Virus record (IMG/VR): IMGVR_UViG_3300037119_001127
Span: 1-24,862 of that record
DNA length: 24,862 nucleotides
Origin: a virus
Direction: 5' to 3' (one strand)
Shown: one piece after another, positions 1 through 15,549 of the stretch
How positions within the stretch are numbered: the first letter of the stretch is position 1
Layout of the letters: each line of letters starts with the position of its first letter
Translations under genes and position numbers: made by a program
The notes under the pieces: model-generated
What the model saw: the letters and a program-made list of their open reading frames with translations, nothing else
Database searches by the model: none
What the model was told of the DNA's origin: nothing

Positions 1-164
1 TGGACGCACGCTCGAACGTGTGTTCGATCCCCGCGTCGCGTGCTCAGAGGATCGCGCGCGCGGCTCCAAGGAACCGCACCCGGGTGGGGGGAATCCGGCT
101 CGCGTCGCCCGGGTGGGACTCATACTGGTGACGATGCACAGGTTCCCAGCCCACCTCCACCAAA

Positions 165-176
165 GTGCATATGCAC
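165..176. promoter_or_regulatory. Palindrome GTGCATATGCAC, candidate operator
   Basis: A perfect 12-bp palindrome whose core TGCATATGCA recurs as TGCAGATGCA at 8054-8063 and TGCAAATGCA at 8132-8141, both inside the other control region. I see no good promoter directly over this copy. Role as a regulator-binding site is inference. Confidence 0.4.
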
Positions 177-207
177 CATGCCCCGAAACACGGGGTTTCA
201 ACCGAGG

Positions 208-307
208 GTTGCAGGCTTGCAACATAAGCCCCAGGCACGAATCGCAGGGTTGCAGGCTTGCAACCCTGGGCTGGAGGGTGTAGGTTGCAAGACGACAAGC
301 CTGCAAC
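208..307. repeat. Three GTTGCA/TGCAAC dyads, candidate operators or iterons
   Basis: GTTGCAGGCTTGCAAC occurs exactly at 208-223 and 249-264; the second is extended to an 11-bp-armed region by flanking AGG/CCT. A third copy lies inverted at 284-307: GTTGCAAG (284-291), 5 extra bases, then AAGCCTGCAAC (297-307). Centres are about 41 and 39 bp apart, near four helical turns, so bound proteins would sit on one face of the DNA. Copy 2 overlaps the -35 and copy 3 the -10 and start of the promoter at 258-286, which favours a repressor-operator role over a replication iteron. Confidence 0.6.
258..286 (+). promoter_or_regulatory. Candidate early promoter (TTGCAA-17-TAGGTT)
   Basis: TTGCAA (258-263), a 17-nt spacer and TAGGTT (281-286) form a sigma-70-like promoter; the -10 is identical to that of the promoter at 8123-8152. 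Transcription would begin near 293 and run into the first small gene at 331. Both boxes lie inside dyad repeats, so a repressor bound there would block it. Confidence 0.45.
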
Positions 308-315
308 ACAGGGGT

Positions 316-341
316 CTGGAGGTTCGTGAGATGGGGAAGGA
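316..341 (+). repeat. Start-site cassette, copy 1
   Basis: A 26-nt block holding a GGAGG ribosome site, the ATG at 331 and the first codons (MGK) recurs base for base at 521-546. It decides the starts of the genes at 331 and 536. Confidence 0.75.
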
Positions 342-534
342 GCAGGGACACGCGCTGATCGCTCCGAGCGAGGGCGAGCCGTGGTGCTGCCGCTGCGGCT
401 GGCAGGGCGACTGGGGACGCAGCGAGAACTACCCGCCCGGGTGGAGTCGCGCCGAAGCAAGGGACGAGTACTCGTTCCACCTCCTCGAAGTTCGCCTCGG
501 CCCGCCCTCCTCTACCGCTACTGGAGGTTCGTGA
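331..534 (+). CDS. Small Cys-rich protein, unknown function
   Basis: This 67-residue protein begins at an ATG placed ten bases after GGAGG, within a block repeated at the next gene, so the start is well supported although the frame is open upstream. Residues 19-24 read CCRCGW, a tight cysteine cluster typical of small metal-binding phage proteins; the rest is Trp-rich and polar with no membrane segment. It is the first gene of the early run and ends one base before the next ATG. I do not recognise the family. A zinc-binding accessory role is only inference from the cysteines. Confidence 0.6.
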   Translation: MGKEQGHALIAPSEGEPWCCRCGWQGDWGRSENYPPGWSRAEARDEYSFHLLEVRLGPPSSTATGGS

Positions 535-546
535 GATGGGGAAGGA
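521..546 (+). repeat. Start-site cassette, copy 2
   Basis: Identical to 316-341. Here the block also carries the last codons and TGA (532-534) of the preceding gene, showing that the same DNA is used once as leader and once as gene end plus leader. Confidence 0.75.
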
Positions 547-685
547 CAGCGACGTAGTGGAACGCGAGCCGAACTGGATGAGCGGACGCTGCGAACTCGG
601 GCTGCACCAGTGGTGCAAGACGGGCCTCCTGTGCGCCTGCGAATGCCACGCCGTCCAAATCTCATCTCCTGAAAGGGCTGGATAA
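536..685 (+). CDS. 49-residue Cys/His-rich protein, possible zinc finger
   Basis: It starts at ATG 536, with GGAGG nine bases upstream in the repeated cassette, and ends at TAA 683-685. Cysteines at 19, 27, 33, 35 and 37 with His38 give a dense Cys/His pattern (C-x7-C-x5-C-x-C-x-C-H) that could hold one zinc ion. The N-terminal MGK is shared with the preceding protein only because the start cassette is repeated; the rest is unrelated. No family recognised. It may act as a small accessory protein early in infection, but nothing in the sequence shows the target. Confidence 0.55.
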   Translation: MGKDSDVVEREPNWMSGRCELGLHQWCKTGLLCACECHAVQISSPERAG

Positions 686-688
686 CGA

Positions 689-865
689 ATGGACGAGGAC
701 GCGATCAAGGCCGAGCGCGACGAAGGACGGTGGCTGGAAGATCGGGGCCAGTGGTACGCCATCGCCGACGACCCGCCGCGGCTGGAACCCGCTGATCCGC
801 CACCCGGCTACGTGATGAGTGAGGCAACCCGTCAGGCCATCCAGAAAGCGTCGGGCCAGCCATGA
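689..865 (+). CDS. 58-residue acidic protein, unknown function
   Basis: The ATG at 689 lies three bases after the previous stop, with a weak AAAGGG ribosome site inside the end of the upstream gene. The product is hydrophilic and acidic at the start, with GRWLEDRGQWYAI as its only ordered-looking segment, followed by a Pro-rich stretch and a short helix. TGA at 863-865 overlaps the ATG of the next gene by the ATGA arrangement, implying coupled translation. No known domain is visible. Confidence 0.55.
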   Translation: MDEDAIKAERDEGRWLEDRGQWYAIADDPPRLEPADPPPGYVMSEATRQAIQKASGQP

Positions 866-1245
866 CCAAGGAACCACTGGAACTGGTGGAGGAGCTGCGC
901 GACAGAGCCAAGCGCACCGGGGCGCTGGCCGCGACCGGGAATGCCGGGTTCCGGTCAGCAAACAACCTTCGGCGCGAGTCGCACCAGTGGAGCGCCGCTG
1001 CCGACCTCATCGAACAACAGGCCCAAACCATCAACCGACTGCAAGGGCAGGTAGGGGCCGCGATTCAACTGGACCGCATCAAGGCCCAAACCATCGAGGG
1101 GCTGAGGGCTGCGCTGGCGATCACAGCAGCGGCGTATCACAGGGAAGTTCCACACCACGCCGGGACGTTCGCTTCGTGCGAATGGCCGACCTGCATGGAA
1201 GCCCGTGCCGCCCTCTCCACCAACAAGCACCAGGAAGGGGACTGA
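862..1245 (+). CDS. 127-residue helical protein with shared C-terminal tag
   Basis: Starts at ATG 862, overlapping the previous stop. Residues about 5-85 are predicted from composition to be alpha-helical and could form a coiled coil (SANNLRRESHQWSAAADLI, QAQTINRLQGQVGAAI). Later residues contain a Cys-x5-Cys pair (ASCEWPTCMEA). The last residues NKHQEGD are encoded by a repeated junction block also found at the ends of two other genes and in modified form at a third, so they reflect the DNA cassette rather than homology. Function unknown; similar small helical proteins are common in actinophage early regions. Confidence 0.65.
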   Translation: MTKEPLELVEELRDRAKRTGALAATGNAGFRSANNLRRESHQWSAAADLIEQQAQTINRLQGQVGAAIQLDRIKAQTIEGLRAALAITAAAYHREVPHHAGTFASCEWPTCMEARAALSTNKHQEGD

Positions 1246-1247
1246 TG
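1220..1247 (+). repeat. Class I gene-junction cassette, copy 1
   Basis: This 28-nt block encodes the gene end NKHQEGD, includes the AAGGGG ribosome site and overlaps stop and next start as CTGATG. It is identical to 1483-1510 and matches 25 nt of 1910-1934. Confidence 0.8.
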
Positions 1248-1508
1248 AGGACGTTCACGATGTACCGCCGCAATCGAGAGGCCGTGTCTGCCGCGCATGA
1301 GTCAGACGCCTACTCGGTGGACGGCGACGAGCCGACGCTAGAGGGTGTCGAGTTCACCGACGGCACCGTCGCAATCCGCTGGCTCACGCCGACCCGCTCG
1401 ACCGTGGTGTGGTCCTCGCTGGCGGACTTCCAAGCCGTCCACGTCGAGAGCCACCCCTCCTACGGCACGGAGATCGTGTGGGCCAACAAGCACCAGGAAG
1501 GGGACTGA
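1245..1508 (+). CDS. 87-residue hypothetical phage protein
   Basis: ATG 1245 shares its A with the preceding TGA, and AAGGGG lies eight bases upstream. The protein begins RTFTMYRRN and has alternating hydrophobic residues (GVEFTDGTVAIRWL, TVVWSSLADFQAVH), suggesting a small all-beta or alpha-beta fold with a conserved middle, a pattern I recall from uncharacterised actinophage proteins. It ends in the shared NKHQEGD tag from the repeated junction. No catalytic motif is visible and the function is unknown. Confidence 0.7.
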   Translation: MRTFTMYRRNREAVSAAHESDAYSVDGDEPTLEGVEFTDGTVAIRWLTPTRSTVVWSSLADFQAVHVESHPSYGTEIVWANKHQEGD

Positions 1509-1510
1509 TG
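1483..1510 (+). repeat. Class I gene-junction cassette, copy 2
   Basis: Identical over 28 nt to 1220-1247: end of one gene, ribosome site, and the ATG at 1508 of the next. The match to the third copy continues past the ATG into the second codon (ATGGGCG). Confidence 0.8.
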
Positions 1511-1627
1511 GGCGAGCCGAAGCCGAAGGACACGGTGCCCTGTGAGGCCTGCGGCGTGAGCATCGCCGCACCGCGTTGGTTCTGTGGCCGCTGCGCCAAG
1601 GACCGCCGAGAAGGGAGAAAGCCGTGA
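1508..1627 (+). CDS. 39-residue zinc-ribbon protein
   Basis: A very small protein with two Cys pairs, CEAC (residues 12-15) and CGRC (26-29), separated by ten residues: a minimal zinc ribbon. The C-terminus is basic (KDRREGRKP). ATG 1508 overlaps the preceding TGA in the class I junction, and TGA 1625-1627 overlaps the following GTG. Such ribbons bind nucleic acid or a protein partner; which applies here cannot be told. Confidence 0.6.
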   Translation: MGEPKPKDTVPCEACGVSIAAPRWFCGRCAKDRREGRKP

Positions 1628-1932
1628 GCGACGAAACGACGACAGCCACGACGAGCACCGCGAGGCGTACCGTCGAGGAGCAGTTGCGGGCCGCTGCCGA
1701 CCGCCTCAGCGACGACCCCGTCACGATCTCGCCGTCCGAGTTGCACGACGCGCTGAACACCGGGGCCAAGACACTTGACCTCCTCGTCCACCTGTTCTAC
1801 GTCGGGCACATCGGGCAGTGCGAATGGAACCGTCCCTACCCGACCGGAACGGAACCTCGCTGCACCTGCGGTCTGAACGAACTCCTGCACGGTGAGGCCC
1901 GACCTCAGGACAAGCACCAGGAAGGGGACTGA
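1624..1932 (+). CDS. 102-residue hypothetical protein with Cys motif
   Basis: GTG 1624 overlaps the stop of the previous gene (GTGA) and has AAGGGAG about ten bases upstream. The first 18 residues are Thr/Ser-rich and probably disordered. Residues 20-60 look helical (TVEEQLRAAADRLSDDP, SELHDALNTGAKTLDLLVHL). Cysteines follow in GQCEWN and RCTCGL, a possible metal site. It ends KHQEGD from the class I junction block. Function unknown. Confidence 0.65.
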   Translation: MSDETTTATTSTARRTVEEQLRAAADRLSDDPVTISPSELHDALNTGAKTLDLLVHLFYVGHIGQCEWNRPYPTGTEPRCTCGLNELLHGEARPQDKHQEGD

Positions 1933-1934
1933 TG
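1910..1934 (+). repeat. Class I gene-junction cassette, copy 3
   Basis: Twenty-five nt match copies 1 and 2, covering KHQEGD, the AAGGGG ribosome site and the stop/start overlap at 1932. Confidence 0.8.
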
Positions 1935-2060
1935 GGCGGGGAACAGGACGCCTACGAAGGAACACAGACGCCCGAGTGGGACAAGGTGCGGGAACTGGTC
2001 CGCCGCTGGCTGCTGGTGGAGGACCCGGACAACAAGCACCAGGAAGGGGAGGGGAAGTGA
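1932..2060 (+). CDS. 42-residue hypothetical protein with hybrid C-terminal tag
   Basis: ATG 1932 comes from the class I junction; the protein starts MGGEQDAYEG and has one amphipathic helix (EWDKVRELVRRWLLVED). Its end, NKHQEGEGK, combines the class I tag NKHQEG with the class II tag EGEGK, so this gene sits where the two junction types meet. Its stop overlaps the GTG of the next gene. No domain recognised. Confidence 0.55.
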   Translation: MGGEQDAYEGTQTPEWDKVRELVRRWLLVEDPDNKHQEGEGK

Positions 2061-2064
2061 GCCC
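2030..2064 (+). repeat. Hybrid class I/II gene-junction cassette
   Basis: The left part (2030-2050) matches the class I block; the right part (from about 2044, GGGGAGGGGAAGTGAGC) matches the class II block at 2381-2397 and 2570-2586. It looks like a recombinant of the two. Confidence 0.7.
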
Positions 2065-2395
2065 GCTATTCGACCCGCAACCACCGACGCTCGCAGTGGA
2101 CGGCAACGGCTACGTCTGGCGCGTCTACCCGCCCGGCACCCACGGCGACGAGGGCTACTTCTCGATGTGCCCGGTGAACCCGGACAACCGCCCGGTGCCC
2201 GAGCCGATCACCTACTACCACCCGCAGCCGCAGCACCTTTCGGCAGCGGTTCAAGCGTTCCTCGACTGGTACGACGGCGCGTTCGATGCAGCAGCCGATG
2301 GGCGAGCGTGGCCCGATCAGACCGAGGCCGTCGAAGTCTTGCGGTCTGCTGTCGGGGCCAATACCCCCCAACCAGAGGAAGGGGAGGGGAAGTGA
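2057..2395 (+). CDS. 112-residue hypothetical protein
   Basis: GTG 2057 overlaps the previous stop as GTGA, with GAGGGGAAG just upstream. The protein opens with a beta-like segment (PTLAVDGNGYVWRVYPPG), then YFSMCPVNPDN, and closes with a helix (LSAAVQAFLDWYDGAFDAA) and the tag EEGEGK. Its first residues VSPL also start the gene at 2580, because the class II cassette extends past the start codon. No known family or catalytic residues are visible. Confidence 0.65.
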   Translation: MSPLFDPQPPTLAVDGNGYVWRVYPPGTHGDEGYFSMCPVNPDNRPVPEPITYYHPQPQHLSAAVQAFLDWYDGAFDAAADGRAWPDQTEAVEVLRSAVGANTPQPEEGEGK

Positions 2396-2397
2396 GC
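2375..2397 (+). repeat. Class II gene-junction cassette, copy A
   Basis: Block GAGGAAGGGGAGGGGAAGTG plus AGC encodes the EEGEGK ending, a purine-rich ribosome site and the GTGA overlap at 2392. Confidence 0.75.
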
Positions 2398-2583
2398 GAC
2401 CGCCGGACCGTGCCCCTTCGTCGCTGCGACTTCTGCGGCCATGAGGGACCGGACTACACCGCCGCGTTTGGTATCGGCGACCCGCCCGAACTCCCGTCGT
2501 GGTGCGGGCAGTGCGACCCGAAGACCGCGCCCTGGAAGCGTCCCCTCCCCACCCCCCAAGGAGAGGAAGGGGAGGGGAAGTGA
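2392..2583 (+). CDS. 63-residue zinc-ribbon protein
   Basis: GTG 2392 overlaps the previous stop. Two Cys pairs, CDFC (residues 12-15) and CGQC (38-41), with a Gly/His turn after the first (CGHEGPD), make a probable zinc ribbon. The tail is Pro-rich and ends in EEGEGK from the repeated junction. It may bind nucleic acid or a host protein; the sequence does not say which. Confidence 0.6.
   Translation: MSDRRTVPLRRCDFCGHEGPDYTAAFGIGDPPELPSWCGQCDPKTAPWKRPLPTPQGEEGEGK
2554..2581 (+). repeat. Class II gene-junction cassette, copy B
   Basis: Twenty-eight nt identical to 2847-2874, encoding the last residues of the upstream gene and the ribosome site of the next. The following bases GAGCCCGCT also match the hybrid junction at 2059-2067. 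Confidence 0.8.
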
Positions 2584-2882
2584 GCCCGCTGCAAGTCCTC
2601 AATGAGCAGTGCGAGACCTGCATCTTCCGTCCGGGGAACCCGATGCACCTTCGCCCCGGCCGCGTGACCTCGATGGTGAGGGCGTGCGCTCGGGACGACA
2701 CCCACATCATCTGCCACGACACGCTCGACATCGTGACGGGAACGCGGGCCACGGAGGCGGTCTGTCGCGGCTACTACGACACGGGGCGACGCTCGCAGAT
2801 GCTTCGGATCGCGGAACGCCTCGGTGCTGTCGCCTTCGTCGCCAAACCCCAAGGAGAGGAAGGGGAGGGGAAGTCCGAGTGA
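2580..2882 (+). CDS. 100-residue Cys-rich phage protein (CxxCIFRPGN type)
   Basis: GTG 2580 overlaps the previous stop. The motif CETCIFRPGNPMHLRPGR (residues 11-28) followed by a Cys in MVRACARDD, ICHDTL and VCRGYY is a pattern I recall from widespread but uncharacterised actinophage proteins. Five cysteines and two histidines could hold zinc or an iron-sulfur cluster; that is inference. The C-terminus carries the class II tag EEGEGK plus SE, because this junction reads two codons further to its stop. No enzyme activity can be assigned. Confidence 0.7.
   Translation: MSPLQVLNEQCETCIFRPGNPMHLRPGRVTSMVRACARDDTHIICHDTLDIVTGTRATEAVCRGYYDTGRRSQMLRIAERLGAVAFVAKPQGEEGEGKSE
2847..2874 (+). repeat. 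Class II gene-junction cassette, copy C
   Basis: Identical to 2554-2581 for 28 nt, then diverges (CCGAGTGACC), so the stop/start overlap is seven bases later, at 2879-2882. Confidence 0.8.
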
Positions 2883-3292
2883 CCCGTCGCGCGTGCCAGA
2901 AGTGCCGGGAGGTCAAGGACATCAGGGAGTTCCCCCCGATCGCCGGGGCGCCTCTGTGCCGAGCTTGCGTGGGGAACCCGCCGGAGGACCGCACTCCTCC
3001 TCTTGGTGGCGGGTCTCCCACGGAGGCTCCGGCACCAGCTGGAACCGAGGCGGGGGGTGAACCGCCAACCGCGCCAAGCGGGCTGCCGACCGATCCCGGG
3101 TCATGGTCGGGTGACGCCGCGCGGGCACCTATCGACGCGGACCCCCCCGCCGCCTCCGCCGTTCTCTTGGAGGCTGCCGTGAACCGCCGCGACTACCAGA
3201 GAGCCATGAGCAAGGCGAAGACCCGGTTGGTACAGCGCCACCGGGAGGAGTTCGACAAGCTCCTCGCCGAGGAGCGGAAGGGAGAAGCATGA
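2879..3292 (+). CDS. 137-residue zinc-ribbon protein with basic helical C-terminus
   Basis: GTG 2879 overlaps the previous TGA. Residues 6-9 CQKC and 27-30 CRAC flank KDIREFPPIAGAPL, a zinc-ribbon layout seen in small phage proteins and in the N-terminal part of some HNH-associated proteins; no HNH catalytic residues are present. A Pro/Gly/Ala-rich linker (about 35-95) leads to a charged helix (RRDYQRAMSKAKTRLVQRH, then EEFDKLLAEERKGEA). Zinc ribbon plus basic helix suggests nucleic-acid binding. The stop overlaps the next ATG. Confidence 0.65.
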   Translation: MTRRACQKCREVKDIREFPPIAGAPLCRACVGNPPEDRTPPLGGGSPTEAPAPAGTEAGGEPPTAPSGLPTDPGSWSGDAARAPIDADPPAASAVLLEAAVNRRDYQRAMSKAKTRLVQRHREEFDKLLAEERKGEA

Positions 3293-3654
3293 CCACGGAA
3301 GGAATGACGTTGGACGAGATCGTGGAGGCTGCGAGGCAGCAGGCCAAGGACTCGCTTACCGAGGCAGCTGGCCGGGTCGAGGAGTGCCAGAATGAACTCG
3401 ACGCCGCAAAGGCGGAGCGCATCCTCGTCGCTCGCGCGGCCTCGAAGATGCTCGACGCCAAGGAGATCGCCGCGTACCTGGGCGTCAGCGAGTCGCTCGC
3501 CTCGTCGCTGGCCCGTGATCCTGAGGCGCCCAAGCGCACCCGCAAGGCCAAGGAGGAGGAGACGCCGAAGCCTCGCCGGGTGAAGGCCGAGGACGCTGCT
3601 GAAGGGGAGGCATCGACGGACCTGTTCGAGGGTCTCGCCGCGAACGCCTCGTAA
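3289..3654 (+). CDS. Helix-turn-helix DNA-binding protein
   Basis: ATG 3289 overlaps the previous stop (ATGA) and has AAGGGAGAAG upstream. The 121-residue product has an N-terminal coiled coil (about 10-52) and a helix-turn-helix at about 56-78 (DAKEIAAYLGVSESLASSLA), then a basic Lys/Arg tail. HTH regions of this type occur in MerR/excisionase-like regulators and small terminase subunits. As the last gene before a terminator, and far from the terminase, a regulatory role is the better guess. It is a candidate reader of the repeated DNA sites in this window, which is inference. Confidence 0.65.
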   Translation: MTTEGMTLDEIVEAARQQAKDSLTEAAGRVEECQNELDAAKAERILVARAASKMLDAKEIAAYLGVSESLASSLARDPEAPKRTRKAKEEETPKPRRVKAEDAAEGEASTDLFEGLAANAS

Positions 3655-3656
3655 GT
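3648..3656 (-). repeat. Weak CTTACG-type site over the stop codon
   Basis: CTCGTAAGT matches 7 of 9 bases of the inverted ACTTACGTC motif and includes the TAA of the HTH gene. Listed as a degenerate member only. Confidence 0.25.
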
Positions 3657-3658
3657 CA

Positions 3659-3706
3659 GAAGCCCCGGGCCACCCCAGACCCCCCGGTCTCCCGGCCCGG
3701 GGCTTC
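3659..3706 (+). terminator. Strong terminator hairpin after the early operon
   Basis: A 13-bp perfect stem, GAAGCCCCGGGCC (3659-3671) with its complement at 3694-3706, begins five bases after the HTH stop. Its loop contains a second stem, AGACC/GGTCT (3677-3681/3686-3690). The tail TCTCCTT is only moderately T-rich, as is usual in G+C-rich hosts. It separates the small-gene run from the virion genes. Confidence 0.75.
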
Positions 3707-3735
3707 TCCTTGCCCTGACCCACAGAGTGTGGTGG

Positions 3736-3744
3736 ACTTACGTC
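3736..3744 (+). repeat. ACTTACGTC site 1 (exact)
   Basis: Exact copy in the gap between the terminator and the ATG at 3746; the only strong intergenic member. Flanks make a hyphenated palindrome, GGAC-TTAC-GTCC (3734-3745). Confidence 0.6.
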
Positions 3745-3745
3745 C

Positions 3746-4483
3746 ATGAGAACTGAAGGAGCGGTCGCTGCTGCTGGGTCTCTCGGACTGACGGTCGTTC
3801 GGGGGGATGCTGTCGAGCACATCGAAGTCCCTGAGCCTTACGCCCCATCCTGGCCGCAGCGCGAGCTTTCCTTCGCGGAGATCATCGCCTTCGGCGCCCC
3901 GCAGTACGGTCTCCCGGAGCAGCTGAACCGCTGGCGCCGGAGCAACGTCAAGAACCTCTGGCGCGGCGCGAGGCGGGTCCTCGCCGCTCGCGCGCTCAAC
4001 CTCCCGACCATGTACGGCTCGCTGTTCCTCGACGTGGTCCGGGGCAGCGGGAAGGTCCAGTCCCTGGGCCTCGTCTCGATGCGGGTCGTCACCGACGCCG
4101 GGGTGGCCTACCTGACCGCCGACATGGACAACGCCTCCGGCTCCTCGGACATCTCGCTGTTCAAGTTCCACGGGTTCGGCACCGGCACCACAGCGGAGGC
4201 GGCGTCCCAGACCGGGCTGATCACCGAACTGACCACGGAGTACGTCGTCAACTCGACGCGCCCCACCGGCTCGCAGGCGCACTCGACCAACACCTACACG
4301 ACGGTCGCCACCCTGGCCCCCGACTCCGGCGGTGTCCTGGCGATCACGGAGCACGGCGTCTTCACGGCCAACGCAGCCGGGACGCTCTGGGACCGATCGA
4401 AGTTCGCAGCGGTCAACCTCGACTCCGGGAACGGTGACTCCCTGATCGCCACTTACGTCGCAACGTTCCCAGCCGGGAGCTAG
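3746..4483 (+). CDS. Putative virion structural protein
   Basis: ATG 3746 follows the terminator; there is no strong ribosome site (only GGTGG about ten bases before) and the repeat ACTTACGTC abuts the start. The 245-residue product has a basic first part (RWRRSNVKNLWRGARRVLAARAL) and a beta-rich second part with the pattern ITELTTEYVVNSTRPTG, ITEHGVFTANAAG, LWDRSKFAAVNLDSGNGDSL, ending ATYVATFPAGS. That second half is a pattern I recall from uncharacterised phage virion proteins of marine and actinobacterial podoviruses and siphoviruses. First gene of a five-gene surface module. Exact virion position unknown. Confidence 0.65.
   Translation: MRTEGAVAAAGSLGLTVVRGDAVEHIEVPEPYAPSWPQRELSFAEIIAFGAPQYGLPEQLNRWRRSNVKNLWRGARRVLAARALNLPTMYGSLFLDVVRGSGKVQSLGLVSMRVVTDAGVAYLTADMDNASGSSDISLFKFHGFGTGTTAEAASQTGLITELTTEYVVNSTRPTGSQAHSTNTYTTVATLAPDSGGVLAITEHGVFTANAAGTLWDRSKFAAVNLDSGNGDSLIATYVATFPAGS
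4451..4459 (+). repeat. ACTTACGTC site 2 (exact)
   Basis: Exact copy in frame as ACT-TAC-GTC (Thr-Tyr-Val) near the end of the gene at 3746. Confidence 0.6.
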
Positions 4484-4990: not shown

Positions 4991-5749
4991 GTGGCTGCCC
5001 CCACCTATCAGGCGATCGGGACGTTCGTCGCGAACAACTCCACGCCTGCGTCCGTTCCCTGGCCTGCCCACGTTGCCGACGATATTGGCCTCCTCATCTT
5101 GGAGAACGCGAACCAAGCAGCTACGGTCTCCGGTTGGACCGAGGTCGGCGCCTCACCGAAGGGGGTCGGGTCGGCTGGCTCCTCCTCGGCGACCGGCCTC
5201 CAGCTGTTCTGGAAGCGTGCCGCCTCCGGGGCTGAGGCGAACGCCAGCGCTGCCTACACCGGGAACCATCAGATGGGCCAGATTCTCACGGTGCGCGGAG
5301 CATGGACTGGTGGTGACCCCATCGACACGTCGGCGGGGGACTCGACCGGCAGCGCGGGGACGGCTATCGTGATCCCCGGCTCCTCCACGATCACCCCCGA
5401 CTGTCTTATCGTGGCGGTTTGCTCGACCGGGCGGGACGCGGCGTCCACCACGGAGTTCGCCAACTGGGCGAACGCGAACCTCGGCTCGATCACCGAGCGC
5501 ATCGACAAGCTCGACACCACGGCGAACGGCGGCGGGTTCGGTGTGGCGACCGGGCCGTTCACCGGGCCGGGCGCCTACGGCAACACGACGGCTGACCTCG
5601 CCAACTCCTTCGACCAGTCGCACATCTCCGTGGCGATCCGCTCCACCAACCCCAAGAGCCTCGGCGTCACCCGCCGCATCCGCTCTCTCGCAGCTGCGGA
5701 CTTCGGCGCCGTCCTCGACTACGACAGCTGGGGCGGTGTTTGGCGGTGA
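4991..5749 (+). CDS. Putative fibre or virion surface protein
   Basis: GTG 4991 is eight bases after the previous TGA. This 252-residue protein starts with TYQAIGTFVANNSTPASVPW and contains TGNHQMGQILTVRGAW, AIVIPGSSTITPDCLIVAV and SHISVAIRSTNP: alternating beta strands in a jelly-roll or Ig-like layout that I recall from phage proteins next to tail-fibre genes. No signal peptide or catalytic motif. The C-terminal 25 residues are different in character and may form a docking segment. TGA overlaps the next GTG, suggesting coupled expression with the repeat protein downstream. Confidence 0.65.
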   Translation: MAAPTYQAIGTFVANNSTPASVPWPAHVADDIGLLILENANQAATVSGWTEVGASPKGVGSAGSSSATGLQLFWKRAASGAEANASAAYTGNHQMGQILTVRGAWTGGDPIDTSAGDSTGSAGTAIVIPGSSTITPDCLIVAVCSTGRDAASTTEFANWANANLGSITERIDKLDTTANGGGFGVATGPFTGPGAYGNTTADLANSFDQSHISVAIRSTNPKSLGVTRRIRSLAAADFGAVLDYDSWGGVWR

Positions 5750-6774
5750 CGTGGCGTTACCTCTCCCCGCCCAACCCACGCAAACGGTTCGCGTTCTCGA
5801 AAGCTTCCTCCGTTGTCAACAACATAAGTCTCGACGGTTCGTCCACCCCTAGCGGGGCACTGGCGAAGTCCGTGGGCAAGCCCCTGGCCGGGTCCTCGAC
5901 CTCTTCCGGCTCTCTGGTGAGGAGCGTCACCAAGGCGCTCGCCGGTTCCGTGACGCCGTCGGGCGCTCTCGCGAAGTCGGTGACCAAGGCGTTCGCTGGG
6001 TCCTCGACTCCAGCTGGCGCGCTCGCCAAGGCCGTCGGGAAGGTCCTCGCCGCGACCCTCGAACCAGATGGCGAGGTCTTCAAGGCGGTCAACAAGTTCC
6101 TGGCTGGGTCGGTTACCCCGGTCTCCGAGGGGAACGAGTGGGAGTTCATCCCCGGGGAGGGTGGAGACGAGTTCACCATCGACCTGGGCGGTAGCGTCAC
6201 CGCTACGGGTGCGCTTGCCCGTGTCGTCGGCAAGGGGCTGAGTGGGAGCGTCACCCCGACGGGGGCGCTCGCGAAGCTCTCGAACAAGGCGTTCGCCGGG
6301 TCCTCCACCCCAGCCGGGGCGATGAACCGGGCGACGACGAAGGGCTTCGCTGGCGCGGTCTCCCCCTCCGGCGTGATTACCCGCGCGGCAGTCAAGGCTC
6401 TCGCCGGGAGCGTCTCTCCTTCCGGTGCGCTCTCGCGACTTACGTCAAAGAGCTTGAGCGGGTCGGTGACGCCCAGCGGGTCGGTGTCGAAGGCGATCTC
6501 CAAAGCGTTCGCCGGGAGCGTTGTTCCCTCCGGCTCTCTCCGCAAGGCCATCGCGAAGCTCTTCGGCGGCAGCGTCACGCCGTCCGGCAGCATCTCCCTC
6601 GATCGCCCCCGCTACCTGAGCCTCAGCGGCCAGATGAACCCACGGATCGATCTCGACGCCTTTGTGGACAGCCAACTGGACCTGGGTGCGGGAGCGGACT
6701 CGCGGGTCGATCTTCCCGGCGTCTCCAGCGGTTCCATCAACCTCGGCGGAACCCACGACACAGAGGTAGGCTGA
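5746..6774 (+). CDS. 18-residue-repeat fibre-like protein
   Basis: GTG 5746 overlaps the previous stop (GTGA); a TTG at 5740 is the alternative. The product of about 342 residues has an N-terminal basic segment (PPNPRKRFAFSK) and then about thirteen 18-residue units of the form LAGSVTPSGALAKSVTKA, interrupted once by an acidic insert (SEGNEWEFIPGEGGDEFT). Conserved Gly-Ser, Pro-x-Gly and Lys/Arg positions recur in each unit. Such tandem units are known in phage structural proteins; a beta-solenoid or elongated fibre is plausible. The C-terminal 50 residues carry shorter Asp-Leu repeats (DSQLDLGAGADSRVDL). Confidence 0.7.
   Translation: MTWRYLSPPNPRKRFAFSKASSVVNNISLDGSSTPSGALAKSVGKPLAGSSTSSGSLVRSVTKALAGSVTPSGALAKSVTKAFAGSSTPAGALAKAVGKVLAATLEPDGEVFKAVNKFLAGSVTPVSEGNEWEFIPGEGGDEFTIDLGGSVTATGALARVVGKGLSGSVTPTGALAKLSNKAFAGSSTPAGAMNRATTKGFAGAVSPSGVITRAAVKALAGSVSPSGALSRLTSKSLSGSVTPSGSVSKAISKAFAGSVVPSGSLRKAIAKLFGGSVTPSGSISLDRPRYLSLSGQMNPRIDLDAFVDSQLDLGAGADSRVDLPGVSSGSINLGGTHDTEVG
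5830..6600 (+). repeat. Tandem 54-nt coding repeats
   Basis: Region encoding the 18-residue units of the fibre-like protein. Units vary in sequence but hold GS..P.G..L.K spacing; one unit is broken by an insert near 6120-6190. The DNA of the units has drifted, so the period is clearer in protein than in bases. Confidence 0.75.
6438..6446 (+). repeat. ACTTACGTC site 3 (exact)
   Basis: Exact copy inside the repeat protein, read out of frame as CGA-CTT-ACG-TCA (Arg-Leu-Thr-Ser). It uses CTT and TCA, uncommon here. Confidence 0.6.
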
Positions 6775-8561: not shown

Positions 8562-8988
8562 GACGCAGCGTCGGGTCGGTGTCGGGAACAAGCTCCCGGC
8601 GGTGAAGAAGGCCGAGATCGTCGGTGCTCTCGCGCAGGGGATGACCCTGAACGAGGCGGCGTCGTGGTGCGATGTGCCGAAGAACACCATCCAGGCCCTC
8701 CTCAACGACGACGAGTTCAGGGACCTGCTGAACACCGCTGAGGACATCGCGGTGAACACGATCCTCCAGGAGGTCGCCACCTCCGTTCGGCGTGGGATCA
8801 AGGAGCTTGGCCCGCGCTCGCTGGAGGTCCTCTCGGCGGCTCTCAGTGACGAGGACGGCAGGGTCCGCCTCCAGGCAGCCGGGATGGTCCTGCGCGGCTC
8901 AGGGATGATGGACGGCGGCAAGGAACTGAACATCCGGGTTGGGCTGGAGGGGCTGGTTGGGAACGACTCCCCAGCGTCCGGAGACTAA
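8551..8988 (+). CDS. Candidate terminase small subunit
   Basis: GTG 8551 has AAGGAGGAGG about twelve bases upstream. The 145-residue protein has an N-terminal helix-turn-helix (KKAEIVGALAQGMTLNEAA, then CDVPKNTIQALLNDDEFRDL) followed by a helical oligomerisation-like region and a C-terminal tail. Length, HTH and position directly before the large subunit fit a small terminase subunit, which binds the packaging start site and feeds DNA to the motor. The helical part (IKELGPRSLEVLSAALSDED, VRLQAAGMVLRG) is typical of phage TerS-like proteins. Call rests on layout, not on a family match. Confidence 0.55.
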   Translation: MPSETQRRVGVGNKLPAVKKAEIVGALAQGMTLNEAASWCDVPKNTIQALLNDDEFRDLLNTAEDIAVNTILQEVATSVRRGIKELGPRSLEVLSAALSDEDGRVRLQAAGMVLRGSGMMDGGKELNIRVGLEGLVGNDSPASGD

Positions 8989-10732
8989 GCTCCGGCGCCT
9001 CGTCAACGAGGCCAAGAAGGACCTCGCGCTCTACTGCAAGCGGGCGCTCCGCATCGTCACCAAGCAGGCGGAGCTTGTCCCCCTGGAGTTCAACTTCGCC
9101 CAGCGGTACGCCCATGAGCGGCTCTCGAAGCAGATGGCGGAGAAGGGCCGGATCAGGGCCATCGTCCTGAAGGCCCGGCAGGAGGGGATTAGCACTTATG
9201 TCGCAGCCCGCAACATGCGGCGGATCACCCTCTATCCGAACCAGAATGCCATGGTGGTGGCCGACCAGAAGGTCCGTGGGGCCACGCTGTTCGGCATCTA
9301 CGACACCTACTACCGGAACCTCCCGGACTCCTACCGCCCGACGAAGCGGTACACCGCCAAGGGCACGCAGCTGCACTTCGACACCCCGACCGGGATCGGT
9401 GGCCTCAACTCGAAGATCAACGTCGGCACGGCGAACGACAAGCAGACCGGACGCGCCGCCGCGATCCACGCCCTGCACGCCTCCGAGGTGGCGTGGTGGG
9501 ACGCCGCCGAGGACGTGTGGGTCGGCCTCGCGCAGTCGGTCCCGGACGAGGGCAGTGAGATCGTCATCGAGTCAACGGCGAACGGTGTCGGGAACTTCTT
9601 CCACGTCATGTGGCAGGAGGCCGAAGCGGGGACCAACGGCTACATCGCGATCTTCCTGCCGTGGTTCATCCATGAGGAGTACGCCATCCCGGTCTCCCCT
9701 GAGCAGGAGGAGGAGATCAGGAAGACGCTCACCCCGTGGGAGCGCACCGCCATGGACGAGGGCATCCCGTGGGAGGGCGACACCTGGGCGCTGTCGGTCC
9801 CCCAGGTCGCGTGGCGGCGCCGGAAGATCACCGAGGACTTCCGTGGCGACGAGCGTGGGTTCCGCCAGGAGTTCCCCTCGACGCCGCGTGAGGCTTTCCT
9901 CGTCAGCGGCAACTGCTTCTTCGATGAAGAGCGGCTGCTGGAGTACGAGGAGATGTCGGAGCGCCCGGTCCTGCGCGGCAACCTCGACCGGCGCGGTGAC
10001 TCGATCGGCCCGGTGCGGTCGGAGTTCGGGTGGCTCCGCATGTACCGCGCCCCCACGGCGAAGGGCCACTACGTCATCTTCGCCGACACCGCCGAGGGCA
10101 AGCAGTCCGGGACGCAGCGGGAGGTCTCCTTCACCGACCCCGACATGGAGCGCGGCGGGAGGGACTTCTGTTCGGCGGATGTCTTTGACGTGGTCTCTCG
10201 CACTTACGTCGCACAGCTGCACGGGCGCATGTCGCCGGAGACCTTCGCGGAGCAGCTGAATCTGCTGGGTCGCTACTACACGGTGGGGACCATGGACCGG
10301 GGCCGCAAGCCTGCCCTGATCGGGGTCGAGCAGAACCACTCGTCGGGGGAGAGCGTGCTGCGCTACCTGAAGGACGCGGCTTACCCCAGCCTGTACCACC
10401 ACCGGCACATCAACCGCCGGACGAACAAGGCAACGACCCTGCTGGGGTGGCGAACGACGGTCGAGAATCGCATGCCCATGCTGGACGAGTTTGCCGGTGC
10501 CCTAAGAGATAACTCGATCTCCTTGCCAAACGCTGACACAATACGAGAGTGCTACACGTTCATCCGGGACGACACGGGTCGCCCAGAGGCCCAGGAGGGT
10601 TGCCACGATGACCGGGTCATCTCGGCTGCCGGTGCCCTCCAGATGGCCCGGCACTCGCGTCCCCCGATCAAGTCCACCGTCGCGAGGGTGAAGGTCACAG
10701 ACTCCCCGACCGGCCTGATGGAGTACGTCTGA
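8957..10732 (+). CDS. terL: Terminase large subunit
   Basis: The packaging motor: an ATPase that drives DNA through the portal and a nuclease that cuts the concatemer. In the 591-residue product, residues 72-80 KARQEGIST are the Walker A-type loop, 174-182 HASEVAWWD the Walker B region with Glu177, and 205-210 ESTANG the coupling motif. The RNase H-like nuclease follows: FADTAEG with Asp377, IGVEQNHSSG with Glu458, and HDDR at 550-553. TTG 8957 is chosen because GGAGGGG lies six bases upstream; TTG 8939 is possible and overlaps TerS more. Two CTTACG-type sites lie inside (9194, 10202). Confidence 0.93.
   Translation: MGTTPQRPETKLRRLVNEAKKDLALYCKRALRIVTKQAELVPLEFNFAQRYAHERLSKQMAEKGRIRAIVLKARQEGISTYVAARNMRRITLYPNQNAMVVADQKVRGATLFGIYDTYYRNLPDSYRPTKRYTAKGTQLHFDTPTGIGGLNSKINVGTANDKQTGRAAAIHALHASEVAWWDAAEDVWVGLAQSVPDEGSEIVIESTANGVGNFFHVMWQEAEAGTNGYIAIFLPWFIHEEYAIPVSPEQEEEIRKTLTPWERTAMDEGIPWEGDTWALSVPQVAWRRRKITEDFRGDERGFRQEFPSTPREAFLVSGNCFFDEERLLEYEEMSERPVLRGNLDRRGDSIGPVRSEFGWLRMYRAPTAKGHYVIFADTAEGKQSGTQREVSFTDPDMERGGRDFCSADVFDVVSRTYVAQLHGRMSPETFAEQLNLLGRYYTVGTMDRGRKPALIGVEQNHSSGESVLRYLKDAAYPSLYHHRHINRRTNKATTLLGWRTTVENRMPMLDEFAGALRDNSISLPNADTIRECYTFIRDDTGRPEAQEGCHDDRVISAAGALQMARHSRPPIKSTVARVKVTDSPTGLMEYV
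9194..9202 (+). repeat. ACTTATGTC site 4 (8/9)
   Basis: One mismatch to ACTTACGTC, in frame as Thr-Tyr-Val just after the Walker A loop of the large terminase. Confidence 0.45.
10202..10210 (+). repeat. ACTTACGTC site 5 (exact)
   Basis: Exact copy inside the nuclease half of the large terminase, again read as Thr-Tyr-Val. The shared TCGCA after sites 4 and 5 extends the match (GTCGCA). Confidence 0.6.
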
Positions 10733-11058: not shown

Positions 11059-13023
11059 ATGCCCGGGGAGGAGGCTGGCTACCCGGGACTCGACCTCTAC
11101 CCGAAGACAGAGGACGAGTACGCCAAGCTCCTCCAGTGGCTTCAGCGCGCGTTCATGGCAGCCGATCGCGCGCGGCAGGACTACTACGAGAAGTGGCGGA
11201 AGTGGTACGCGCTCCGGCGCTCCAACGTCCGCCGCACCGAGGGGGACTGGCACTCCAAGGTGTTCGTCCCCTACGCCTTCTCGATCATCGAGACGATCAC
11301 GCCGAAGCTCATCTCGCAGGTCCCTGGCTTCTTGGTGAACCCGGTCTCCCCGGAGGACGTGTTCCCCTCGAAGAACATGGAACGGATGATGAACTACTGC
11401 GGCACCAACTCGAAGCCGGACCTGTACGTCGAGTTGGTGAAGGCGTACAAGTCGGCGCTGTCCTACGGCACCGGGATCATCAAGACCTACCACCAGCGGG
11501 TGACCGCTTCGACGGTGAAGCTGGTCCCGCAGATGCAGGACATCCCCGGCCCGCCGACGATGGTGCCCGACCCCGCGACGGGCGCCCCCATGCGGAACCT
11601 CGACGGCAGCCTCGTCCTGCAACCCACCGGCTCCTTGGGGCAGGTTCCCACCGGAGAGTTCGAGCGCATGCCGATGGAGCGTGTGATCTACGACGGCCCG
11701 GCGGCGCAGTGGGTGGACGTGTTCAACTTCTGGCCCGCTCCGGAAGCAGCCGACATCGAGACCGCCCGGTATGTCGTCCATCGGACGTGGCAGGAGATGT
11801 CCCACATCAAGGCCCGGGTCAAGGAGGGGGTCTACCGCTTCCCCGACGGCATGGAGCCGGGTGACATCACCTCGCAGACCCGGGAGGAACCGCTTCAGGT
11901 CCGGCAGGACGTGCTGGGCCTTGGCACCACCGACGACTCCACCCGCAAGCCGGTCGAGCTTCTGGAGTTCTGGACCGACGACGGGCGGGTGATCACTCTT
12001 GCGAACCGCGCACACATTCTGCGCGTAAGTCTCAACCCATTCGACCATCAGGAGAAGCCGTTCGCCAGGATCGTGGACTACCTGATGGAGGGCGAGTTCT
12101 GGGGCGTCGGGGAGATCGAGGCGATCGAGGGTCTTCAGGACCTGTCGAACGCTCTGGTCAACCAGCGGCTCGACAACGTCCGGCTCCTGATGAACTCGAT
12201 GTTCGCGGTGAACATCGAGGGGATCAACGACCAGCGGGAACTGGAGATGCGCCCCGGCGGCGTCATCACCGTCACGGGCGACCGCACGCCGTCTGACGTG
12301 ATCCACCGGATCGACCTGGGCGACGTGACCTCCTCGGCCTTCGCGGAGGCGGAGCAGACCGAGAGGCTGATCGAGCGGGTCTCCGGCGTCACCGCATACA
12401 CGATGGGGATCGACTCCCCGTCGATGAACGACACGGCCACGGGCGTCGGCCTCATTCAGGAGGCCGGGAACACCAAGTTCGCGCTCAAGCTCAACCTCGC
12501 CGAGATGATGGGCCTGAAGGCCCTCGCGCGGCAGTGGGGTAGCCTGATCCAGCAGTTCACCGACGAGGAGAAGTGGGTCCGCCTCCTCGGCCCCGACGGC
12601 CAGTTCACGTTCCAGTCGATCCGGCCCGACTCGATCGCCGGAGCCATGGACTTCGACATCGAGAGCGCGTCGAGCGCACAGACCGAATCGGTGCGTAAGG
12701 AGCAGGCCATGACGCTCGCGCAGGTCGTGGCCGGGATGGCGCCGCAGGCTGTTCCCCAGCTGGTGGAGGACCTGCTGTCCGCGTTCGGGAAGAAGGACCT
12801 CGCGAGCTACCTCGGCCCTGAGGCGCAGATGCGGGCGCTGATAATGGCCCAGATGAACCAGTACATGATGCAGGGAGCACCGGCCTACGGTCAGCAGCCC
12901 GCACAGCCCGGTGCGCCTGAACCTGCCATGGCCGGTCAGCAGCCGCAGGGGCAGATGGGTACGGGGCCGGAGCAGCAGCTTCAGTCCCGGCTCAACATCC
13001 CATTCCAGCAGTCGGGGCTGTAG
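11059..13023 (+). CDS. Portal protein
   Basis: The portal ring at one capsid vertex, through which terminase packages DNA and to which the tail attaches. ATG 11059 touches the previous TAG. Residues near 65-85 read WHSKVFVPYAFSIIETITPK, a hallmark of portals of P22-like and related podoviral types, followed by ALSYGTGIIKTYHQR and, in the core, EFWGVGEIEAIEGLQDLSNA and NMRLL-type wing helices. The length, 654 residues, suits a large portal. The last 60 residues are Gln/Pro/Met-rich (YMMQGAPAYGQQPAQPG), likely flexible barrel or tail. One degenerate CTTACG site lies at 12022-12030. Confidence 0.9.
   Translation: MPGEEAGYPGLDLYPKTEDEYAKLLQWLQRAFMAADRARQDYYEKWRKWYALRRSNVRRTEGDWHSKVFVPYAFSIIETITPKLISQVPGFLVNPVSPEDVFPSKNMERMMNYCGTNSKPDLYVELVKAYKSALSYGTGIIKTYHQRVTASTVKLVPQMQDIPGPPTMVPDPATGAPMRNLDGSLVLQPTGSLGQVPTGEFERMPMERVIYDGPAAQWVDVFNFWPAPEAADIETARYVVHRTWQEMSHIKARVKEGVYRFPDGMEPGDITSQTREEPLQVRQDVLGLGTTDDSTRKPVELLEFWTDDGRVITLANRAHILRVSLNPFDHQEKPFARIVDYLMEGEFWGVGEIEAIEGLQDLSNALVNQRLDNVRLLMNSMFAVNIEGINDQRELEMRPGGVITVTGDRTPSDVIHRIDLGDVTSSAFAEAEQTERLIERVSGVTAYTMGIDSPSMNDTATGVGLIQEAGNTKFALKLNLAEMMGLKALARQWGSLIQQFTDEEKWVRLLGPDGQFTFQSIRPDSIAGAMDFDIESASSAQTESVRKEQAMTLAQVVAGMAPQAVPQLVEDLLSAFGKKDLASYLGPEAQMRALIMAQMNQYMMQGAPAYGQQPAQPGAPEPAMAGQQPQGQMGTGPEQQLQSRLNIPFQQSGL
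12022..12030 (-). repeat. Degenerate CTTACG-type site in portal gene
   Basis: CGCGTAAGT is 7 of 9 to the inverted motif; identical in reverse to ACTTACGCG at 22442-22450. Confidence 0.3.
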
Positions 13024-14370: not shown

Positions 14371-15549
14371 ATGGCCCAGACCGTCATCAGGGCACCGGAG
14401 AGCACTGGCAACATCCCTGCCGCGAGGCGAGTCAGGGACGTGGCGAACCGGATCGAGTACCTCGACCCGGACATCGCGCCGCTGACGCTCATCACGCAGA
14501 AGGCGCGGACCAAGACCGCGAACAACTCCACCTTCGAGTGGATCGAGAAGGACCTCGCGGCCCGCTGGGACCAGATCAACCACGCGGACTACACGAACGA
14601 GACCTCGATCGTCGTGGACAACGGCGACTACTTCTCGGTCGGCGACGTGGTGAACGTCCCGCGCACGGCGGAGAAGATGCTGGTGACGGCGGTCGATCCG
14701 ACCACCGACGAGCTGACGGTCGTGCGGTCCTACGGGCCGACGGCGATCGGCACCCTCGTCAACAACGAGGACCTCCAGATCATCGGCAACGCCTACGCGG
14801 AAGGTGCGGTGTCCGGCTCGGCCAAGAGCCACATCGAGACCTACCCGTTCAACTACACGCAGATCACGCGGACCCCGCTCCAGATCACCCGCACGGAGAT
14901 GAACTCCGAGAACTACACCGGGGCCGACCGTCCGCGCCTGCGTGCCGAGAAGAACATCGAGCACCGCCTCGACTTGGAGCGCACCGCGCTCTTCGGCGAG
15001 CGTCTGCTCGACACCTCCTCGCCGGGGACGACCGACGGCCCAGTCCGCACCACGGGTGGGGCGTTCTACTTCCTGACGGGCGCGACGAACGAGACCGACG
15101 CCGGGGGCATCCTCTCCGCCAGCGAGATGGAGAGCTTTTGCCAGGACGTGTTCCAGCACACGGGCGCCGGGAACACCCGGCTGTTCGTGGCCTCCCCGTT
15201 GCTGATCTCTGTCTTCGACCTGATCGCCCTCGGACGCATGCAGCTGGTGCCGTCCGACAAGGTGTACGGCATGACGGTGAAGCAGTGGGTCACCGGCCAC
15301 GGCACGCTCATGATCGTCAAGCACCGCCTGCTGGAGGACGGTCCCGGCGGAGTCGGGTACGGCGGCTACGGCCTCGCGCTCGACATGGACAAGTTCATGA
15401 TCCGCCCGCTCGCGAACAGCAACACCAAGCTGTACGCGGACATTCAGGAGAACGACCGCGACGGCGTCAAGGACGAGTACCTGACCGAGGCGGGGTGGCA
15501 GATCAGTTCGCCGCTCGTCCACGGCATCCTGTCCGGCGTCACGGGCTAG
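14371..15549 (+). CDS. Major capsid protein, DUF5309-like HK97 fold
   Basis: The shell subunit. ATG 14371 follows GGAGGAGAAGG. Its 392 residues start RVRDVANRIEYLDPDIAPLT with TLITQKARTKTANNSTFEW, the hallmark opening of the DUF5309 family of major capsid proteins (HK97 fold). Further on are YPFNYTQITRTPLQITRTEM (P-domain region) and a C-terminal block HGTLMIVKHRLLED, LALDMDKFMIRPLANSNTK, QENDRDGVKDEYLTEAGWQI that is conserved in that family. Long antisense and shifted frames over it are shadows. A hairpin follows its stop, consistent with its high expression. Confidence 0.9.
   Translation: MAQTVIRAPESTGNIPAARRVRDVANRIEYLDPDIAPLTLITQKARTKTANNSTFEWIEKDLAARWDQINHADYTNETSIVVDNGDYFSVGDVVNVPRTAEKMLVTAVDPTTDELTVVRSYGPTAIGTLVNNEDLQIIGNAYAEGAVSGSAKSHIETYPFNYTQITRTPLQITRTEMNSENYTGADRPRLRAEKNIEHRLDLERTALFGERLLDTSSPGTTDGPVRTTGGAFYFLTGATNETDAGGILSASEMESFCQDVFQHTGAGNTRLFVASPLLISVFDLIALGRMQLVPSDKVYGMTVKQWVTGHGTLMIVKHRLLEDGPGGVGYGGYGLALDMDKFMIRPLANSNTKLYADIQENDRDGVKDEYLTEAGWQISSPLVHGILSGVTG

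Follow-up and report, generated by a model that had tools for sequence, protein, structure and literature searches.

Small genes are gained and lost in large numbers by phages, and how this occurs is a long-standing question. Boundaries in mosaic phage genomes are mostly without a repeat, and gene gain or loss is usually ascribed to illegitimate recombination (PMC3029335). A C-terminus shared through recombination at the gene end has been described for gp67 and gp68 of Island3, a mycobacteriophage of cluster I (PMC3029335), and direct repeats of 17 bp and 29 bp flank Corndog gene 14 and LRRHood genes 43-46 (PMC4351075, PMC3029335). Start-associated sequences are conserved at ribosome sites in cluster K and in the Microbacterium phages of cluster EF, and a possible service in recombination was suggested by their authors (PMC3203893, PMC7302621); the cluster K sites are mostly located in intergenic gaps of more than 50 bp (PMC3203893). 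As cited in PMC4503421, the PeSLs of T4-type phages (Arbiol 2010, Comeau 2014) combine a promoter with a stem-loop.

Junction blocks in the small-gene run

The window, that is, the whole stretch of DNA analysed, comes from an uncultured phage and is the complete virus record IMGVR_UViG_3300037119_001127 (24,862 bases, 66.7% G+C). A run of 13 small genes (a to m), most of which overlap by a few bases, occupies its left end (331-3654). The large terminase is encoded at 8939-10732, and matches to SU10 families were obtained for the portal (11059-13023) and major capsid (14371-15549) proteins; these SU10-type proteins co-occur in the same genome with small genes whose relatives sit in actinobacteriophages. 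The host of the phage is likely actinobacterial, because homologues of gene e are present in mycobacteriophages and Streptomyces phages. The gene at 5740-6774 is made of 54-nt (18-residue) repeats resembling G-S-x-x-P-S-G-x-L-x-K, and the protein encoded at 20371-22425, among tail or structural genes, has a polysaccharide deacetylase domain (PF01522) close to the N-terminus and a long region C-terminal to this domain. The leader ahead of the first small gene (205-310) holds repeated GGGTTGCAGGCTTGCAAC motifs, partly palindromic, and an exact 19-nt pair at 205 and 246; the motifs could be operator sites or a terminator.

Within 862-2060, the class I block CCAACAAGCACCAGGAAGGGGACTGATG, or 24-29 nt of it, is present on the plus strand at three gene junctions. 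Copy 1 (1220-1247) lies between gene d (862-1245, 127 aa) and gene e (1245-1508, 87 aa), copy 2 (1483-1514) between gene e and gene f (1508-1627, 39 aa, zinc-ribbon-like with four cysteines), and copy 3 (1910-1938) between gene g (1624-1932, 102 aa) and gene h (1932-2060, 42 aa). Copy 1 comprises the last codons (T)NKHQEGD, a purine-rich ribosome site, and a TGATG stop/start overlap, and the same TGATG overlap is found at each of the three junctions. Genes d to h, like gene k, are encoded on the plus strand, and the upstream ORFs d, e, and g end with TNKHQEGD, ANKHQEGD, and QDKHQEGD, respectively. Gene e belongs to the phrog_21173 family (Catdawg gp26, Comrade gp86), and no relatives of gene d were found in phage records or IMG/VR. 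The sequence-only reading had reported reuse of the block at 1220, 1483, and 1910, which was borne out by exact repeats: the 28 nt of CCAACAAGCACCAGGAAGGGGACTGATG recur at 1220 and 1483 and the 29 nt of ACAAGCACCAGGAAGGGGACTGATGGGCG at 1486 and 1910, so that copies 2 and 3 share 29 nt that reach into the start of the following gene.

A 19-mer common to the class I copies occurs four times in the window and 0 times on the opposite strand. The 17-mer core, with up to 3 mismatches allowed, was found at the same four sites only, against 0.1 expected in shuffles. The earlier list of three class I sites stands but omitted a fourth, hybrid copy (2030-2062, plus strand) between gene h and gene i. The left half of this block is class I (CAACAAGCACCAGGAAGGGGA) and its right half is class II (AGGAAGGGGAGGGGAAGTGAGC), with a 10-nt core, AGGAAGGGGA, at 2041-2050 common to both halves; gene h ends with DNKHQEGEGK. 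Class II blocks follow on the same strand at the i/j (2363-2397, tail PEEGEGK), j/k (2551-2590, tail GEEGEGK), and k/l (2844-2881, tail GEEGEGKSE, with 6 additional bases before the stop codon) junctions, where gene k (2580-2882, 100 aa) matches phrog_5443 at residues 6-87. A class A start block, CTGGAGGTTCGTGAGATGGGGAAGGA, is located at 316-341 and repeated at 521-546, both on the plus strand. The upstream half of the first copy lies in the leader before gene a, a stretch that, judged from its sequence, is apparently non-coding, and that of the second encodes the end of gene a (TGGS and the stop codon), with the start of gene b next.

Region 1-3700 contains 46 repeated 18-mers; Markov resamples had 0, and permutation of codons within genes gave a mean of 2 and a maximum of 4. 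These repeat statistics exclude a chance origin of the window blocks. The window shows identical junction DNA between genes without a clear relationship, and we considered whether whole genes had been duplicated in tandem and had then diverged, leaving only the junctions alike. The genes are indeed small and adjacent, and weak cysteine-motif similarity was detected between genes j and l (z 4.4) and between genes b and f (z 3.8). However, the tag-bearing genes d, e, g, and h do not exceed z 3 among themselves, only the pair g/j reaching 3.0, and the gene e family has relatives of its own outside the window. Furthermore, divergence of genes past recognition with 28 junction bases unchanged is implausible without other forces, and we judge this origin very unlikely.

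Outside relatives and the C-terminal tag

Relatives of gene e are encoded at 73 IMG/VR loci, with matches extending to about W79. Past this residue, the tails are all unlike the tag, which is present in 0 of the 73; for example, Catdawg gp26 ends with TEVHW-DDGHVERL, compared with TEIVW-ANKHQEGD in the window. The first base of class I copy 2 is the second of codon 80, the codon next to that of W79, which is the last conserved residue of the family. The phrog_5443 match of gene k extends to residue 87, and the class II block of this gene starts at about codon 89; homologues of gene k at the loci L007 and L008 are without the EEGEGK tail. Homology to families outside the window thus stops at the block in gene e and no more than a few residues away from it in gene k.

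Five of the codons concerned (AAC, AAG, CAC, CAG, and GAC) make up 90-98% of their codon families in the window genome, and the only unusual tag codons are GAA (19%) and GGG (34%), which form the purine-rich ribosome site. Because the tag codons are the usual ones of the genome, identical synonymous codons alone are no proof of DNA-level conservation in the window. More telling than the codons are the extension of the class I repeat into the next gene (ATGGGCG), its match across a D/N difference (GAC/AAC), the hybrid block, and the class A block. Since all class I copies share one frame and the tag codons are genome-preferred, the window taken alone is compatible with selection at the protein level.

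No DNA relatives of the window genome, near or distant, were found in phage records. In IMG/VR, the exact class I 19-mer had no match and a degenerate 17-mer matched 9 stretches, 0 of them at a gene end; genome contigs had no match to a 22-mer of the block. As a point against cassette exchange at the window blocks, no relative of the window genome shows a gain or loss of a cassette there. The nearest relatives, L005 and L022, have 46-48% TerL identity to the window phage; junction repeats of the window kind were not found in the TerL relatives L005, L006, and L022. Among candidates for junction blocks elsewhere, the repeats of L104 and L105 were rejected as a repeated protein stretch (EREACAK) and those of L100 as a repeat coding for N-termini (MKITK..QLKQIIKEE), the copies of which differ synonymously. 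In L105, tandem small genes at 5100-6260 carry the EREACAK stretch and have similar ends (IRARG..K before the stop codon).

Gene exchange at the block of a second phage group

A scan of the loci analysed for repeats at gene starts led to a second, separate group of uncultured phages, the first contig of which, L051 (29% TerL identity), has ten copies of CTCRGTRACGAAGGAGGGG within 3.2 kb upstream of the terminase. The block of this group, CTCAGTAACGAAGGAGGGG, was counted 10 times in L051 and 9 times each in L178 and L182, and is less frequent in L176, L177, L179, L180, and L181. Arrays of the block with the gene end LSNEGG(G/D)DG are located at L051:1-3200, in L178, and at L182:4086-5740, and more than 20 gene ends of the group read LSNEGG(G/D)DG or a close variant. 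Matches in 15 bacterial contigs are chance hits in single copies.

Unrelated L051 genes end with LSNEGG(G/D), among them a DNA methyltransferase, whose phrog_363 match extends to residue 269 of 279, and a protein that matches phrog_419 as far as residue 92 of 100; in both, homology stops where the tag begins. The L051 copy at 479 comes after a gene read in another frame (ending RRPQ), and at L051 1931, L176 11002, and L182 4855 the gene stop precedes the block. Because three copies lie after a stop codon and one after a gene in another frame, the conserved unit in this group is DNA. The sequence-only reading had placed conservation in the DNA block and not in the protein, and these copies support that proposal. 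In this group, the unit is the DNA junction, with the tag as a by-product.

The same reading had allowed the tag a role in the proteins. A peptide serving as a functional tag, for example in degradation or targeting, and kept by selection would fit the four of four window class I copies and the majority of second-group copies that are in the tag frame. However, homologues of genes e and k are without the tag, some second-group copies are out of frame or past the stop codon, one class A copy has an apparently non-coding upstream half, and the peptides differ between the window and the second group. A role for the tag was thus not borne out, and we regard it as highly improbable.

Genes shared within the second group have 87-100% DNA identity and different neighbours between contigs, and homology drops to background at the block. 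In the EPI cassette, present in L176, L177, L178, and L182, identity per 30-nt segment is 87-100% past the block and 95-100% in the block, compared with 10-45% more than 20 nt upstream of it; a GCCGCC extension lies within the nearest 20 nt upstream. In the pair L051:80/L178:1765, the 78 nt leading up to the block are 100% identical, past which identity falls to 38, 23, and 15%. The break is likewise downstream at the block in L051:2633/L182:4086 and L181:12770/L182:5714, and on the upstream side in L051:2296/L182:4086 and L176:10694/L182:4553. The pair L176:11002/L182:4855 was excluded, since its spacers differ in length and put the ungapped comparison out of register. Furthermore, two cassettes are in reversed order in L176 and L182. 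The L051 gene at 2296-2632 consists of the start of one L182 gene and the end of the adjacent one, joined at an internal similarity; because of this internal crossover, the blocks are not the sole exchange points in the group.

Whether gene gains and losses break exactly at such blocks was the check proposed for related phages in the sequence-only reading; it gave a positive outcome in the second group, which is separate and has another block sequence. The further proposal that small genes are cassettes swapped at their junctions is supported in that group by the homology breaks at the block and the changed neighbours, and in the window indirectly, by the hybrid block and by the gene e homology ending beside the block.

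The second-group contigs are, like the window, metagenome assemblies, and assemblers can be misled by repeats. Against chance or an assembly artefact stand the 17-mer shuffles and 18-mer resamples, the presence of the second-group block in contigs from four metagenome ids, as found by a pattern scan, and the exact agreement of L177 and L180, from two metagenome ids, over the stretch compared. We give this explanation practically no weight.

Probable reusable junctions and their precedents

Taken together, these findings make it probable that the block is a reusable gene junction at which small genes are exchanged as cassettes, the tag being a by-product. The block holds the last codons of the preceding gene, a ribosome site, and the overlapping stop/start with the following gene, and whole small genes would be swapped whenever any two copies crossed over, whether both lay in the same genome or in two genomes sharing a cell. 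Because every copy has the same phase, both reading frames would be kept, and the incoming gene would be given a working ribosome site. The common C-terminal peptide would be the translation of the junction, and several unrelated small genes would end alike because one short piece of DNA is reused at each junction. We infer that the window array was built by the same process as in the second group and that general or phage recombinases perform the exchange. That the blocks are instead dedicated sites, at which a phage recombinase swaps single-gene cassettes and a private junction per lineage acts as a compatibility code, seems to us quite improbable.

Alternatively, the block may have been kept as a good element for translation initiation or coupling, its identity maintained by selection or gene conversion and exchange being incidental. 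A purine-rich ribosome site at the stop/start overlap ends every block (class II contains GGAGG, class A GGAGGT, and the second-group block AAGGAGGGG), and the start-associated sequences of clusters K and EF are conserved at ribosome sites (PMC3203893, PMC7302621). However, conservation also covers about 15 nt ahead of the ribosome site that do not pair with 16S rRNA, the Shine-Dalgarno match of class I is only AGGA, weaker than in other genes of the window, and the block RNA folds no better than shuffles. This explanation also leaves the homology between genomes that stops at the block unaccounted for. We consider it unlikely as an alternative to the reusable junction, with which a translational role is compatible as a second role.

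For annotation, a common C-terminus of small phage proteins need not imply common descent or function. Multi-copy in-frame junction blocks are present in each of two phage groups whose block sequences are unrelated, and natural contigs of the second group allow the exchange of genes to be followed to the block.

The comparison with start-associated sequences of cluster K, drawn in the sequence-only reading, held for position only. Those sequences are likewise specific to a genome group, in which many small non-structural genes have them at the ribosome site, and the window blocks are also placed at ribosome sites, directly ahead of start codons. In contrast, start-associated sequences are 13 bp long, have no coding half, and lie mostly in gaps of more than 50 bp, whereas overlapping genes flank the class I, hybrid, and class II junctions; the 13-bp cluster K motif GGGATAGGAGCCC, with up to 2 mismatches, had no match in the window. 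The PeSLs resemble the blocks as repeated junction elements mediating gene shuffling, but, as cited in PMC4503421, they have an early promoter and a stem-loop, neither of which was found at the window blocks; a scan for one promoter type, sigma-70-like, found none in 1-3800.

Island3, Corndog gene 14, and LRRHood are closer precedents than the cluster K sequences. The adjacent Island3 genes 67 and 68 have their last 18 residues and about 50 bp in common (PMC3029335), the common end seen in the sequence being LAHVR-D/E-VAGRK-x-RRR, and in the cases of Corndog gene 14 and LRRHood genes 43-46, relatives have one copy of the junction repeat, and two copies enclose the added gene or genes. Repeats at gene ends or junctions are likewise found in the window, and relatives differing in gene content at the repeat are seen in the second group, with another block. 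Unlike the window, Island3 has two copies only, from a single gene gain or loss, and no array, and Corndog and LRRHood have one insertion each, without a multi-gene array carrying a common tag. Our limited literature search found no description of multi-copy arrays of a coding junction block. Junction repeats for single gene gain or loss are thus already published, whereas multi-copy coding arrays look new.
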